The notes beneath the pieces were generated by a model. That model was given only the letters and a program-made list of their open reading frames with translations. It had not been told where the DNA came from and made no database searches. Below, in pieces: positions 52,767 to 58,970 of a stretch of 64,000 bases of DNA. The position numbers and the translations under genes were made by a program. Source of the DNA: Pseudomonadota bacterium (GTDB taxonomy: Bacteria; Pseudomonadota; Alphaproteobacteria; Rhizobiales; Aestuariivirgaceae). Position 1 is the stretch's first letter, and every line of letters starts with the position of its first letter. The stretch is taken from assembly GCA_963205315.1 (NCBI GenBank), contig CAUJIO010000101.1, positions 1 through 64,000 on the forward strand, given 5' to 3'.

Positions 52767-53429
52767 ATGAAATCCGCCGTCGTCATATTCCCCGGACTAA
52801 ACCGCGACAGCGACATGATGATGGCGCTCGAGGGCGTGACCGGCTCAAGGCCCGTGTCTGTCTGGCATACGGAAACCGAACTGCCGAAGGTCGATCTTGT
52901 GGTCATCCCCGGCGGTTTTTCCTATGGCGATTACCTGCGCTGCGGGGCGATCGCCGCGCGCTCACCCATCATGTCGGATATCCGGGCCAAAGCTTTGAAG
53001 GGACTCAAGGTCCTTGGCGTCTGCAACGGCTTTCAGATCATCACCGAGGCAGGCCTGCTGCCCGGCGCACTGGTGCGCAACGCACAGCTCCGCTTCGTCT
53101 GCCGCCAAGTGAAGCTCCGGGTCGAGAACAACCAGACCTTCTTTACGAAGAACCTGGCCAAAGGCGCTGTCGTGTCCTGCCCTGTCGCCCATGGCGAAGG
53201 CAATTACATCTGTGACGCCGAGACGCTGAAGCGGCTCGAGGGGGAGAACCGCGTGGTATTCCGCTACGCGGACAACACCAACCCCAATGGCGCCATGAAC
53301 GACATCGCCGGTATCATCAACGAGCAAGGCACCGTCATCGGCATGATGCCGCATCCCGAAAACATGATTGAACCCCTGCACGGCCGCGCCGACTGCCGCC
53401 CGCTGTTCGAGAGCCTGCTGGCGGCGTGA
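52767..53429 (+). CDS. purQ: FGAM synthase glutaminase subunit PurQ
   Basis: The 220-residue class I glutamine amidotransferase has [13 protein letters not shown] at the N terminus, [16 protein letters not shown], the nucleophile Cys86 in LGVCNGFQI, and the His-Glu pair in MMPHPENM. It supplies ammonia to PurL. In related genomes purL follows directly; here 3.3 kb of other genes come between. Confidence 0.96.
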
Positions 53430-53430
53430 A

Positions 53431-54621
53431 CTAACAGGCAGCCGGGAAAGCGGAGCAAGTATCGCGCATCAGATTGCCGATGTTCCCTGCTCCATACCCA
53501 CCATAGTCAGCGTCAGGAAACTCGGCATTCACGCCGAACCACGAAGCGCCCTGCACATTCGCGCCGACAGTTGAGTATCCCCAGCTGGTGACTCCCACCA
53601 CGTAATTTGACTTTGCAGCACTGCCGAGATCAGCGGCTGTCGAGATCGAGGGCCGCGTTCCGAAATTGACAAGCCAAGGGCCGCCGCTCGATCCTCCGGT
53701 CTGCGGTGAGCCGATCTGCGTGTTCCTGAGCTCATTTCCGTTCGTCGTCGATGAGCTGGTGATGTATTTGCCGAATGTATCCGTCATCTGCATCTGGTAG
53801 CCGCTGTCGAACGCAACGGGATAGCCAAGTTGCGTGATATCGGCGACTGTGCTGTTGCCGAATACTGGAGACGCCGCGAAGGAATACCCGTTCCAGCCAT
53901 AACCGTACCAGCCGCCCAAGGTCGTTCCTGGGTATTCGCCGCTCTTCTTCTGCAGCGTCACTGTTGCAATGTCATTGTTGCAGGCAATGCCTGCCGCGCC
54001 ATTCTCGCATGTGTCTGTGCCATCAAAATAGGGAGTGGGAACGCGCCAGTTCGTCCCGGCATAATATCCCCACGGCCCCCCCTTGGAAGACGTGTTCGCC
54101 GGATACCAGAGCACTTCGTCTGCCCAGCCGTCGGCCTTCGTCCCGAACTTGTGGACGCAATGCGCGGCGGTGATGAGCACGGCCTTTTTTACCAGCGACG
54201 CCGTGCAAACGTACCAATCTGTGCCGAAGCGCATCCACAATTTTCCTGTCAGGCGGTATGGCTTGGCCGTGACTGGAGAGCCGGCAATATTATTGATCTG
54301 CTGGCTGGACGAATTGGCGACGCGAGAAATCGAGTAAGGCCATTTCTCTGTGCCGCTGCCGTAGCTTCTGGACGTGCTACTGGAGGCGCTGCTGCCCTTC
54401 CGGCCAACAGGTGCGGCATCGGACCGCCGGCCGCCAACCGGAAGGATGCTGGTGCTGAGAAGCGGCAATCGCGAGAGTCCTGGTCCAACGGGCACCGTCG
54501 AATTCGACATCGAACTCGGTCCCCTTGCAGTAGTCCTTTCGGCCTGTGCGCCGGGTGACGCCGCCAGCAGAGCAAGTGCAACACTGAAATACAATGAAAG
54601 ACGTCCAGAGGAATTCGTCAT
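53431..54621 (-). CDS. Secreted trypsin-like serine protease
   Basis: The 396-residue protein has a signal peptide (LYFSVALALLAASPGAQA) and a Ser/Arg/Gly-rich low-complexity region to about residue 110. A chymotrypsin-fold domain follows, with the triad visible as LITAAHCV (His), NDIATVTL (Asp) and GGSSGGPWLV (Ser). It resembles the V8/glutamyl-endopeptidase-like secreted proteases of bacteria. The stop lies one base after the purQ stop on the opposite strand. It is the first member of an accessory segment that splits purQ from purL. Confidence 0.88.
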   Translation of the reverse strand: MTNSSGRLSLYFSVALALLAASPGAQAERTTARGPSSMSNSTVPVGPGLSRLPLLSTSILPVGGRRSDAAPVGRKGSSASSSTSRSYGSGTEKWPYSISRVANSSSQQINNIAGSPVTAKPYRLTGKLWMRFGTDWYVCTASLVKKAVLITAAHCVHKFGTKADGWADEVLWYPANTSSKGGPWGYYAGTNWRVPTPYFDGTDTCENGAAGIACNNDIATVTLQKKSGEYPGTTLGGWYGYGWNGYSFAASPVFGNSTVADITQLGYPVAFDSGYQMQMTDTFGKYITSSSTTNGNELRNTQIGSPQTGGSSGGPWLVNFGTRPSISTAADLGSAAKSNYVVGVTSWGYSTVGANVQGASWFGVNAEFPDADYGGYGAGNIGNLMRDTCSAFPAAC

Positions 54622-54978
54622 GTCGCTCCGTTAACTTCACAAGCTGCCGTACTCTATTGGGATTTCTTAGAGAGATTTTCGCGTTTCAACATTGACGCCG
54701 ATCAACCTGATCTTCTCCGATCCATGCTGACTGGCTTCTTCTTCGCGCGTCAGACCAAAGTCAAATGGGCCAGAACTTCAGGGATGGCCATCTGGCGGGC
54801 ATTTGAAAGCGCTCTATGTTCAGTGCTGGCGGCTGTCTTGTATGTTCGACTTGTGCTACCTATTATATTCTCGGTGTGAGTTTATCTGTACTGTTGATCG
54901 GCCGTGCAGCAGGCAGTGACGACGTCGCGGGGGACAAGCGGCATATATTGCGGCAAACTCTGGGAATGGGCATTACCG
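54622..54978. other. Intergenic region between the protease and the small secreted protein
   Basis: About 357 bases separate two divergent genes. The part around 54840-54880 is AT-richer (CCTATTATATTCTC) and may hold a promoter. Short open frames across it lack ribosome sites or protein-like features. No tRNA, repeat or terminator was seen. Confidence 0.5.
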
Positions 54979-55224
54979 ATGAACAGCAAGTTCCTGAAAC
55001 TATCAACAGCCGGCGCAGTTCTCATGCTGTTTTCTGCGGGTGAGGTTGCGGCGGCGGGGAAAAAACACATTCTGATCGACGGACACGGCGACAGACGGCC
55101 GTACGCGGCGGATTCACGTGCCGGTGGCGGAAAATCCCATCCAATCGGAACACAACCCGGCACGGTATCGAATGGCACCAAGACACATCCGATCGGCCAG
55201 CAGGACGGTCCCCCACCGCGGTAG
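54979..55224 (+). CDS. Small secreted peptide with repeated HPIG motif
   Basis: The 81-residue frame begins MNSKFLKLSTAGAVLMLFSA, a clear signal peptide, cleaved near GEVAAAG. The mature part is short, Gly/Pro/Lys-rich and probably unstructured, with the phrase HPIG in two near-repeats (KSHPIGTQPG and KTHPIGQQDG). The ribosome site is weak. It is divergent from the serine protease and could be its substrate, inhibitor or an unrelated exported peptide. No family is recognised. Confidence 0.55.
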   Translation: MNSKFLKLSTAGAVLMLFSAGEVAAAGKKHILIDGHGDRRPYAADSRAGGGKSHPIGTQPGTVSNGTKTHPIGQQDGPPPR

Positions 55225-55613: not shown

Positions 55614-55640
55614 TCAAATGCTTTCCACCAGATTAACGCC

Positions 55641-55720
55641 CGCTTCACCGCGGCCGCCGTTAATGTTGGATTAACGCCGTTTGATTGCGCAGTATGTGGT
55701 TGTCCAATCGTTAACGGACA
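55641..55720 (+). promoter_or_regulatory. Leader copy 1 with full CtrA-type box
   Basis: This leader and the one at 56441-56520 are copies, with identical or nearly identical blocks: CGCTTCACCG, the box, TATGTGGTTG, CCAATCG and TAACGG. The box at 55660-55675 reads TTAA-TGTTGGA-TTAAC, an exact CtrA consensus, and is also part of a palindrome GTTAAT-N5-ATTAAC. The box ends 72 bases before the start codon of the gene at 55748. Confidence 0.75.
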
Positions 55721-55747
55721 CAGGCATTCAGGGTTCAGGAGAACAGC

Positions 55748-55933
55748 ATGGCACGTTTCATCAAGTCGCTCCTCGGATATGACCGCAACGTCGCATCGCC
55801 GGAAGAAACCGAGGCCTACCGCGTCGCCAACGAAGCGTTGCAATACCGCGTCAACATGATTGCCCGTCAGAGCAACCGCGCCTCTAGTTCCGACCGGCCG
55901 ACGACGGACATCTACGGCCGCTCCATTATTTGA
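55748..55933 (+). CDS. Small IKSLLG-family protein 1 (61 residues)
   Basis: The protein begins MARFIKSLLGYDRNVASPEE and continues TEAYRVANEALQYRVNMIAR, ending in a polar tail. An AGGAG site lies six bases before the ATG. It shares with the genes at 56143 and 56549 an N-terminal I-K-S-L, a central S-(P/A)-x-E segment and a helical A-x(3)-L-x(2)-R-V motif at matching spacing. No known family is recognised. The paired leader with a CtrA-type box suggests cell-cycle control. The short amphipathic N terminus could bind membrane or a partner. Confidence 0.72.
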   Translation: MARFIKSLLGYDRNVASPEETEAYRVANEALQYRVNMIARQSNRASSSDRPTTDIYGRSII

Positions 55934-56142
55934 ATCCGGTTTCAGCACCACCACGATGCGTTGCGACGGAGCGGATGGACCGCACCGGGCAACGCTTCTT
56001 GGTTTTTGATTAAATTGAACAGTTGCAGCTAGCGGGCCGTTTACCCCAACCGGAGTTGGGAACAAGTTAGCAGAAAAATTTCTCTCAAATTCATGCATCC
56101 TGTGCGAGATATTCCGGCATTGCACGCATGGAGAGAAACACA

Positions 56143-56295
56143 ATGACCGGCATCATCAAGTCGCTTATCGCCAAAGCTCGCGGGATCTCTGCAAAGGAAG
56201 ACGCAGAGACGCTCGATCGCGCCACTCAGGTTCTGCAGACCCGCGTTCAACGGTTCTCGGCTTCCTCTCCCCAGCAAGACCGCGCCGCTGCCTGA
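56143..56295 (+). CDS. Small IKSLLG-family protein 2 (50 residues)
   Basis: The protein begins MTGIIKSLIAKARGISAKED, continues AETLDRATQVLQTRVQRFSA and ends SSPQQDRAAA. A GGAGAG site lies about seven bases before the ATG. It keeps the I-K-S-L start, the S-A-K-E-D acidic turn and the A-x(3)-L-x(2)-R-V helix motif of the neighbouring genes. Unlike them it has no CtrA-type box or recognisable leader copy in front; a small hairpin CCCAAC-CGGA-GTTGGG lies at 56044-56059. Function unknown. Confidence 0.65.
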   Translation: MTGIIKSLIAKARGISAKEDAETLDRATQVLQTRVQRFSASSPQQDRAAA

Positions 56296-56440
56296 CACCT
56301 CCGCCAACGTTCGCGCGGCGACGAATAATAGCGCGACAGCAACCGCATCCTGCAAACATCTGCCGCCTTGCCACCCCCGCGTGACGGCGCAAGGTCAGGT
56401 TCACGACCTGTCATAAAATTGTACCGGACAGAGTAAGGGC

Positions 56441-56520
56441 CGCTTCACCGAGAGCCGTGTTAATCTTGGATTAACGCAGGAAACTCGGGCCATATGTGGT
56501 TGCCCAATCGCTAACGGGCT
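56441..56520 (+). promoter_or_regulatory. Leader copy 2 with full CtrA-type box
   Basis: This is the second copy of the leader described at 55641, displaced by 800 bases. The box at 56460-56475 reads TTAA-TCTTGGA-TTAAC, again an exact CtrA consensus within GTTAAT-N5-ATTAAC. It ends 73 bases before the ATG at 56549, nearly the same spacing as in copy 1. Confidence 0.75.
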
Positions 56521-56548
56521 TCGTAACCAAAGCATTAGGAAAACGCCC

Positions 56549-56686
56549 ATGACACGCATCCTCAAGTCTCTCCTCGGCTCCAAGCGTCAGGAACAGTCTC
56601 CGGAGGAAATCGAACAGCTGGCCCGTGCCACGTTCGTGCTGCGTTGCCGCGTCGAGCGGATGATGGACGGCAAGGCCACCATCTGA
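56549..56686 (+). CDS. Small IKSLLG-family protein 3 (45 residues)
   Basis: The protein begins MTRILKSLLGSKRQEQSPEE, continues IEQLARATFVLRCRVERMMD and ends GKATI. An AGGA site lies eight bases before the ATG. It resembles the 61-residue protein most at the start (KSLLG) and the 50-residue protein in the ARAT-x-VL-x-x-RV helix. It ends 91 bases before purL. Function unknown; the duplicated CtrA-type leader and conserved motif spacing support a real gene. Confidence 0.7.
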   Translation: MTRILKSLLGSKRQEQSPEEIEQLARATFVLRCRVERMMDGKATI

Positions 56687-56777: not shown

Positions 56778-58970
56778 ATGAGCCACCCCAAAGACATCAA
56801 GATCACCCCGGACCTCGTCAAATCCCACGGCCTCAAGCCGGATGAGTACGAGCGCTTCGTGAAACTGCTGGGCCGCGAGCCCAGCATCACCGAACTCGGC
56901 ATCTGCTCGGCCATGTGGAACGAGCATTGCTCCTACAAGTCCTCTAAGAAATGGCTGAAGACCATGCCCACCAAGGGGCCGAAGGTCATTCAGGGTCCGG
57001 GCGAAAATGCCGGTGTGATCGACATCGGCGACGGCGACGCCATCGTCTTCAAGATGGAAAGCCATAACCATCCCTCCTTCATCGAGCCCTATCAAGGGGC
57101 AGCCACCGGCGTCGGCGGCATCCTGCGCGACGTATTCACCATGGGCGCCCGGCCGATTGCCGCGATGAACGCGCTGCGCTTCGGCGAGCCGTCGCACCCC
57201 AAGACCCGGCACCTGGTGTCGGGCGTCGTCCACGGTGTCGGCGGCTATGGCAATTCCTTCGGTGTGCCGACCATCGGCGGCGAGGTGAACTTCCACGCCC
57301 GCTACAATGGCAACATCCTCGTCAACGCCATGGCGGTGGGTCTCGCCCGCGCCGATTCGATTTTTTATTCCAAGGCCAAGGGCGTCGGCCTCCCCGTCGT
57401 CTATCTTGGCGCCAAGACCGGCCGCGACGGCATCCACGGCGCCACCATGGCGTCAGCCGAATTCGACGACAAGGCGGAGGAAAAGCGGCCGACGGTTCAG
57501 GTGGGCGACCCCTTCACCGAGAAGTGCCTGCTGGAAGCCTGCCTCGAACTCATGGCATCGGGCGCGGTCATCGCCATTCAGGACATGGGGGCCGCCGGCC
57601 TCACCTCGTCGGCCGTCGAAATGGGCGCCAAGGGCGATCTCGGCATCGAGCTCGACCTGGACAAGGTTCCATGCCGCGAAGAAGGCATGACGGCTTATGA
57701 AATGATGCTGTCGGAAAGCCAGGAGCGCATGCTCATGGTGCTGCGCCCCGAGCAAGAGAAGGAGGCGGAGGCCATCTTCCACAAATGGGGGCTGGATTTC
57801 GCCGTCGTCGGCAAGACCACGGACACGCTGCGCTTCATCATCAAGCATGAGGGCGAGGTGAAGGCCGACCTCCCCATCAAGCAGATGGGCGACGAGGCGC
57901 CGGAATATGACCGCCCCTGGACCGCGCCGAAGAAGCTCCCAGTGCTGAAGGATGTCCCCGCTCCCGCCGATCTGGCCGCGGCCATCCTGAAGATCGTCGG
58001 CTCGCCCGACATGTGTTCCAGGCGCTGGGTGTGGGAACAATATGACAGCCTGATCCAGTCCAACACCGCGCAGATTCCCGGCGGCGACGCCGGCGTCGTC
58101 CGCATCCGGGACAAGAAGGCCATCGCGGTGTCGACCGATGTGACGCCGCGCTATGTCGAAGCCGATCCCTTCGAGGGCGGCAAGCAGGCCGTGGCCGAAT
58201 GCTGGCGCAACCTTACGGCAGTCGGCGCCGAGCCCATCGCCATCACCGACAACCTCAACTTCGGCAATCCGGAACGCCCCGAGATCATGGGGCAGTTCGT
58301 GTTCGCCATCAAAGGCATCTCGGAAGCCTGTATCGCGCTGGACTTCCCCGTCGTCTCCGGCAACGTCTCGCTTTACAACGAGACCAACGGCCAAGGCATT
58401 CTTCCGACGCCTGCCATCGGCGGCATCGGCGTGCTGAAGGACGTGACCAGGATGGCGACGCTGGCCTTGAAGAGCGACGGCGATGCCATCCTGCTGATCG
58501 GCGGACATGGCAGCCATCTGGGCCAGTCGACCTATCTGCGCGAAGTGCTTGGCCGTGAGGAAGGCGCCCCGCCACCCGTCGACCTGGCCCTCGAGAAACG
58601 CCATGGCGACTTCGTCCGGAACTTGATCAATTCATCGCAAGTCACTGCGGTGCATGACATTTCCGACGGCGGGCTTGGACTCGCAGTGATCGAGATGGCG
58701 ATGGCCTCCGGCCTCGGCGCCAGTCTCTCCGCCCTCACCCACGAACAACTCTTCGGCGAGGATCAAGCGCGTTACGTTGTCACTTGCAAGTCCAGTGATG
58801 CCGTCCGCCTCCTGACCGAGGCCACCGCCGCCGGCGTGCCGATGGTAAAGCTGGGCGAGGTCACGGCGGATCCCGTCCTGAAACTCGCCAACGGTCCCAG
58901 CATTCCTGTCGCCCAGCTTCGCACCGCCCACGAAGCCTGGTTCCCGGCCTACATGGCGGGGGAACTCTGA
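56778..58970 (+). CDS. purL: FGAM synthase large subunit PurL
   Basis: The 730-residue protein is the small-type PurL that works with PurS and PurQ. Motifs are [16 protein letters not shown] with the catalytic His, [29 protein letters not shown] split over the ATP site, [16 protein letters not shown], and [16 protein letters not shown], with a second half-domain carrying [12 protein letters not shown] and [12 protein letters not shown]. It converts FGAR to FGAM. The start at 56778 gives the usual N terminus. Confidence 0.97.

Follow-up and report, generated by a model that had tools for sequence, protein, structure and literature searches.

Between purQ and purL, the window, by which we mean the whole stretch of 64,000 nucleotides analysed here, holds three very short reading frames on the forward strand, and the locus raises the question of whether these are genes and, if so, what switches them on and what their products do. 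On balance, we favour the explanation that they belong to a real, genus-restricted family whose members have their own CtrA-activated promoter and a cell-cycle-timed product. The parts of this explanation differ in strength: that there is a gene family with a CtrA-type promoter we hold with high confidence, that CtrA actually controls the genes is, judged from sequence, probable, and that the product is a CtrA-timed, partner-binding regulator is suggested tentatively.

Three small genes between purQ and purL

The upstream flank (52767..53429, + strand) encodes a glutamine amidotransferase domain and is named PurQ from its context. The downstream flank (56778..58970, + strand) was found by ORF scan, is taken from its context to be purL, and supplied its N-terminal part as a search query. 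The same scan placed three paralogous small ORFs between them on the + strand, of 61 codons (gene 1, P0002, 55748..55933), 50 codons (gene 2, the middle gene, P0001, 56143..56295) and 45 codons (gene 3, P0003, 56549..56686), and by eye each is preceded by a purine-rich ribosome site, in agreement with an earlier note on this DNA. Common to the three proteins are (F/I)-(I/L)-K-S-L near the start, an acidic turn S-(P/A)-x-E and A-x3-L-x2-R-V; the last two motifs hold as that note had given them, but gene 1 reads F-I-K-S-L and not I-I-K-S-L. Gene 1 is 63% identical to a syntenic copy in one relative, G030, with a Ka/Ks of 0.29, and gene 3 is closest to the only copy in G031, which lies 76 nt upstream of purL, and to the second copy of G030. 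The middle gene is matched by profiles A2 and A3, both of which include it among their own rows.

Across the genus the gap between purQ and purL, where purQ is in view, measures from 24 bases to about 3,350 (in the window). It holds unrelated ORFs (window 53431-55220; loci L075-L107), of which that in the window encodes a trypsin-like protease and those in other genomes, by eye, flavoprotein-like, PAP2-like and large membrane proteins, as if the gap were an insertion hot spot. At 54979-55221 (+) the window also encodes a putative secreted peptide of 81 aa, whose start resembles a signal sequence and in which the motif (S/T)HPIGxQxG recurs; Pfam gave no match for it.

Leaders and boxes in the window

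The leaders of genes 1 and 3 (55629-55717 and 56429-56517) are 75% identical over 89 nt at a spacing of 800 bases, and the 140 nt before the two ATGs are 63% identical, a value reached by 0 of 1000 shuffles. Both carry TTAA-N7-TTAAC on the + strand, TTAATGTTGGATTAAC at 55660..55675, ending 72 nt before the ATG of gene 1, and TTAATCTTGGATTAAC at 56460..56475, ending 73 nt before that of gene 3; the proposal that these leaders are copies of one another with a CtrA box at this distance is thus borne out. The main box of gene 1 has a box-like element 27 bp upstream of it (TTAACGCCCGCTTCAC, 55633..55648, +), and a motif scan of the leader of gene 3 found its counterpart (GTAAGGGCCGCTTCAC, 56433..56448, +). 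A candidate -10 region, TATGTGG, is common to gene 1 (55693..55699, +), gene 3 (56493..56499, +) and the first G030 leader. According to a study of the Caulobacter CtrA regulon (PMC4287350), the full motif is TTAA-N7-TTAA and, in one case, the P2 promoter of a gene with several promoters, it begins 39 bp ahead of the activated start; with that spacing the window's transcripts would start near 55699 and 56499.

CtrA-box promoters had been proposed for the family as a whole, and this stands for genes 1 and 3 but not for the middle gene, before which an intact CtrA box was sought and none was found. TTGG-N7-TTAGC at 56056..56071 (+; TTGGGAACAAGTTAGC), 71 nt before its ATG and with 3 mismatches of 9, is suggestive, from position alone, of a decayed box. 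The leader of the middle gene has a weak likeness to that of gene 3 (40%, reached by 2 of 1000 shuffles) and none to that of gene 1 (31%, reached by 607 of 1000), and CtrA control of the middle gene is weakly supported.

Relatives across the genus

The genus set comprised 37 genomes including the window's own (G000), and the stretch upstream of purL was read in 33 of the 36 others; the unread loci are those of G011 and G035, without a purL match, and G006, with a partial purL at a contig end. When 61 genomes were searched with the protein of gene 1, G030 alone emerged as a further carrier, its two copies lying in the same setting, and a five-row profile then brought in G031 and G017. A motif scan and a box-first scan of the purL upstream stretches found members in 19 genomes, nine of which (G007, G033, G012, G016, G034, G020, G004, G008 and G022) were fully picked out only by the box-first scan, G034 and G022 having earlier been weak profile matches. 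Profile A3, built from 23 members, found three genus genomes absent from it, G002, G023 and G027, in each case just upstream of purL, the last being cut by a contig end. Homologues with the same motif, which the earlier note had asked for, were therefore found at the purL locus in 22/33 relatives of the same genus, in diverged form, and none was found in 11/33, for two of which (G032 and G001) absence is read from a short or purQ-less stretch together with a genome-wide profile search. Since it was not found in these 11, the gene appears to be dispensable; CtrA is present in 10 of the 11. A weak profile match in G019 (E 0.014) lies away from purL and was dropped from the carrier count. A GTG-started 50-aa look-alike in G036, 43 nt before purL and without a box, was also not counted as a carrier, and is still among the 26 ORFs of the box and amphipathicity counts below.

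Outside the genus, no member was seen at seven loci, in two of which the stretch read before purL is only about 280 and 510 nt long. Profile A3 matched 14 of 384 non-genus genomes in an order sample (E 0.001-0.018; at most 16 candidates scored per genome), where about 8 matches are expected by chance at the same threshold, and 2 of 73 in a sample of relatives in which all candidates were scored. All of these matches lie in frames of 174-1322 aa, two with an internal stop, and for this reason we treat them as chance. The core pattern TTAATNTTGGATTAACG, with one mismatch allowed, occurred in 9 of 120 genomes, at the family gene in four (G000, G030, G031 and G034) and elsewhere in five. The promoter pattern TTCAC-N11-TTAA-N3-TRGATTAAC, derived from the family's own leaders and again with one mismatch, had matches in 5 of 13 genus genomes, all of them at the family gene, and in 1 of 384 others; the reversed control matched two genomes.

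No credible match to the family came from Pfam, NCBIfam, PHROGs, PDB or Rfam; the 23 members scanned against Pfam, NCBIfam and PHROG had matches with E 0.0007-0.23, none of them above a curated cut-off and each family in only one or two members. Nothing on the family or its setting was found in the open PubMed Central literature. The suggestion of an undescribed small-protein family is upheld by the syntenic relatives, the conserved box and the purifying selection, together with the lack of a credible library match.

Every member found lies upstream of purL, and in G024, G005, G010 and G031, as for gene 3 of the window, the distance is 62-91 nt, as would be expected if the small ORFs acted in cis on purL as leader peptides or attenuators, their translation serving only to control purine synthesis. 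This close linkage does not hold in all carriers, however: in G030 a reverse-strand ORF of 343 aa separates the two genes from purL, which is about 1.3 and 1.6 kb away from them, and the gene is about 1.1-1.8 kb away in G007, G012, G033 and G017. Moreover, purL stands without a detected small gene in the 11 genomes noted above, and the amino-acid sequence itself is under selection. We consider a role as purL leaders very unlikely.

Promoter anatomy across relatives

The main box is conserved across the family. With at most one mismatch of 9, it precedes 24 of the 26 ORFs (19 exact, 5 with one mismatch), a count that is partly selected because nine relatives were picked out in full only via the box, and in these 24 it ends 50-85 nt before the start. 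The two ORFs without it are the middle gene of the window and the look-alike of G036, itself a doubtful member. In G017 the box is weak, being equalled by 18 of 300 shuffles. G002 and G023, which came from the protein profile alone, have a one-mismatch box each; the start codon taken for G002 is one among several candidates. These counts agree with the upstream conservation of TTAA-N7-TTAAC that had been put forward as a check.

A second element was searched for 20-35 bp upstream with the template TTAA-N7-TTCAC, itself suggested by these same leaders, and 27 bp (start to start) was the best offset in 24 of 24 leaders, with no mismatch in 4, one in 7, two in 10, three in 2 and four in 1. Over 20 leaders, four close relatives having been dropped, the halves of the main box carry 1.8-1.9 bits per column. 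In the upstream element the TTCAC half carries 1.4 and the remaining half 0.9, and the sequence that separates the two elements carries 0.38, where chance gives a mean of 0.11 and a 99th percentile of 0.47. A comparable arrangement is found in Caulobacter at pilA, which is CtrA-activated and whose promoter, as described in PMC11264516, has a -35 site and less consensus-like upstream sites, with the same spacing in C. segnis, the extra sites lowering and delaying expression. The pilA promoter has four sites, with site 2 lying 31 bases upstream of site 1, whereas the family has one extra element at 27 bp start to start, with 11 bp between the boxes. By analogy, the upstream element of the family could lower and delay expression.

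In seven leaders (L089, L092, L097, L099, L101, L104 and L105) a stem-loop starts 18-25 nt downstream of the CtrA box, close to the presumed transcript start. Counting mismatches, its arms span 9-17 positions, and by eye its pairing is kept while the sequence differs between species. It is weak or absent in the window, where a weak 5-bp stem-loop, TGTCC-N10-GGACA (55701..55720, +), lies at the place of the strong 5' UTR hairpin of some relatives, and for the window genes we leave it out of account.

Coding constraint and protein design

The family proteins are roughly 45-76 amino acids long and their reading frame is under purifying selection. Over 12 pairs (at least 50% identical over at least 40 codons) Ka/Ks was 0.21-0.62, and in the eight closest it was 0.21-0.33, which supplies the coding constraint named beforehand as a check. 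Changes at codon positions 1/2/3 numbered 8/7/15, 10/8/22, 7/9/21 and 14/14/23 in four pairs.

These values bear on the possibility that the ORFs are non-coding or chance frames in a conserved regulatory region whose real product is an RNA. Indeed, 8 of 24 leaders fold with z ≤ -2.5, a figure to be read beside the box region used as a control, which also leans negative (mean z -0.6). Against an RNA product, third-position substitutions dominate, as in the 10/8/22 and 8/7/15 pairs, the folding of the window's own two leaders is not significant (z -0.2 and 0.3), and Rfam gave no match in the window region or in the loci of eight relatives, on which ground an RNA family was rejected. We find this reading scarcely credible, and continue with the small ORFs as protein-coding genes.

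Among the aligned members Arg34 is invariant (25/25), positions 8, 9, 24, 31, 35 and 38 are hydrophobic in 25/25 and positions 4 and 5 in 24/24, and the C-terminal tails vary by subclade. No transmembrane or long hydrophobic stretch was seen by eye in the family proteins. The membrane-binding amphipathic N terminus proposed in the earlier note fared less well than its other claims: the helical hydrophobic moment of the first 13 residues gave a median shuffle p of 0.27 per protein and, pooled over 26 non-independent ORFs, a p of 0.036, barely above shuffles, so that it is weakly supported.

CtrA in this genome and its other boxes

CtrA is encoded in the window's genome at G000:C69:119395-120063, with a score of 424 bits against a curated cut-off of 350, the next best match scoring 184. 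A CtrA over the cut-off is likewise encoded in 34 of the 37 genus genomes; a match at E 1e-90 or better is absent in G032, a non-carrier, and in the carriers G007 and G012, the genomes of which are incomplete (rated 92 and 79% complete).

The exact motif occurs genome-wide in 28 matches at 21 places, against 18 matches for a reversed control, and for this reason single boxes in this genome are unconvincing alone and it is conservation that convinces. Nineteen other exact-box places, in 18 stretches, were inspected, and ten proteins chosen by us were searched with Pfam. All ten are preceded by a box. They comprise two response-regulator-type proteins, one L,D-transpeptidase, one penicillin-binding protein of transglycosylase type, one divergent polysaccharide deacetylase, one peptidoglycan-binding protein and one each of zinc-ribbon, cold-shock, metallopeptidase and DUF6949 type, a hand-chosen set that fits a cell-cycle and envelope regulon. 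An exact box at G000:C31:47362 lies 45 nt before an OmpR-type regulator (L156), which presumably resembles the flagellar regulator FtcR and lies about 14 kb from the flagellin genes at C31:61726-64401.

It could be argued that the box does not mark a CtrA-activated promoter and is instead read by a different regulator or serves to control replication. The inner T-R-G-A of the 7-base spacer is conserved in the family beyond the CtrA consensus and, by eye, is missing from all 19 of the genome's other exact-box places, and two carriers, G007 and G012, are those without a CtrA match. Compared with the Caulobacter regulon, the full palindromic motif is the same, and the genus differs in this conserved T-R-G-A; the starts given here for the window are predicted ones. 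On the other side, CtrA is encoded here and the box is at a promoter-like distance. As for replication, the window has 3 DnaA boxes (at most one mismatch) where 5.3 are expected, and its GC skew, taken in 4-kb steps, shows no local turn; an origin was rejected on these grounds. We think it improbable that the box serves something other than activation by CtrA.

Comparison with pilins and small cell-cycle proteins

Flp/Fap pilins are about 50-60 aa long with a short hydrophobic-basic N terminus. The family proteins are alike in size and N terminus, but by eye lack the hydrophobic pilin segment and have no match to PF04964, Flp_Fap being none of the 11 families matched by any of the 23 members scanned. 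The number of Flp pilin matches varies from 0 to 9 per genome within the 37 genus genomes. That the product might be a component or accessory of the pilus or flagellum gained some colour from these counts, since Flp-type pilin matches average 3.4 in 23 carriers against 1.5 in 11 non-carriers (p 0.001, uncorrected for kinship; matches below the Pfam cut-off included, and G006, G011 and G035 left out as their locus was unread). The association fails in sister-clade contrasts made by eye on the tree, two going one way and two the other, and the pilus link was dropped. Flagellin was detected in 10 of 23 carriers, not in 13, and in 7 of 11 non-carriers (p 0.46), all being drafts of varying completeness, and a flagellar role is unsupported. 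Overall, a pilus or flagellum part is quite improbable, and a regulatory peptide is preferred.

SidA and DidA of Caulobacter are small, lineage-restricted, cell-cycle-tied membrane proteins that regulate division. The family proteins are likewise small, lineage-restricted and, as predicted here, tied to the cell cycle, but do not have a long hydrophobic segment; DidA is described in PMC4211646 as DNA-damage-induced.

History of the family

A FastTree phylogeny from 100 PurL and 220 PurQ columns, drawn without support values, has carriers on nearly all branches of the genus and non-carriers in four places. The simplest reading is that there was one ancestral gene between purQ and purL, followed by four losses. 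Since genes of the gene-1 type and of the gene-3 type occur both in G030 and in the window species, the duplication would, most simply, have preceded their split, the third copy arising in the window. Expansion by duplication of gene plus promoter, as the earlier note had it, agrees both with the 75% identity of the leaders at their 800-base spacing and with the lineage duplication that the tree suggests.

Discussion

The family, its synteny, the purifying selection, the promoter anatomy and the presence of CtrA in the genome were computed from the genomes themselves, and the mechanism that we propose goes further. Each gene most likely has its own CtrA-activated promoter, with the main box at the presumed -35 and a weaker element 27 bp upstream, and phosphorylated CtrA would bind the box and switch the gene on late in the cell cycle. 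Gene and promoter were probably duplicated together in the window's lineage, and the middle copy has no intact box. With less certainty, the product may be a cytoplasmic two-part peptide, in which a short N terminus, hydrophobic and cationic, leads into an acidic turn or cap and then a helix, the hydrophobic face of which would be broken by the invariant Arg. Such a peptide might bind a partner or itself, perhaps at the membrane, and would be a regulator rather than an enzyme.

Going beyond this, one may speculate that these are a rapidly diverging, lineage-specific class of micro-proteins, fired by a tandem CtrA promoter and tuning a cell-cycle or envelope machine at the membrane, which we regard as rather doubtful; that the transcript would, in some species, start in the stem-loop belongs to the same reading and is no less doubtful.

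CtrA-driven small genes and lineage-restricted small proteins are kinds already known; the libraries searched do not themselves contain this family. Its existence suggests that short, fast-evolving proteins confined to one genus, and missing from those libraries, are recruited by the CtrA network. With a defined anatomy of promoter, start and invariant residue, and with apparent natural losses within the genus, a role of the family in the cell cycle would be directly testable.
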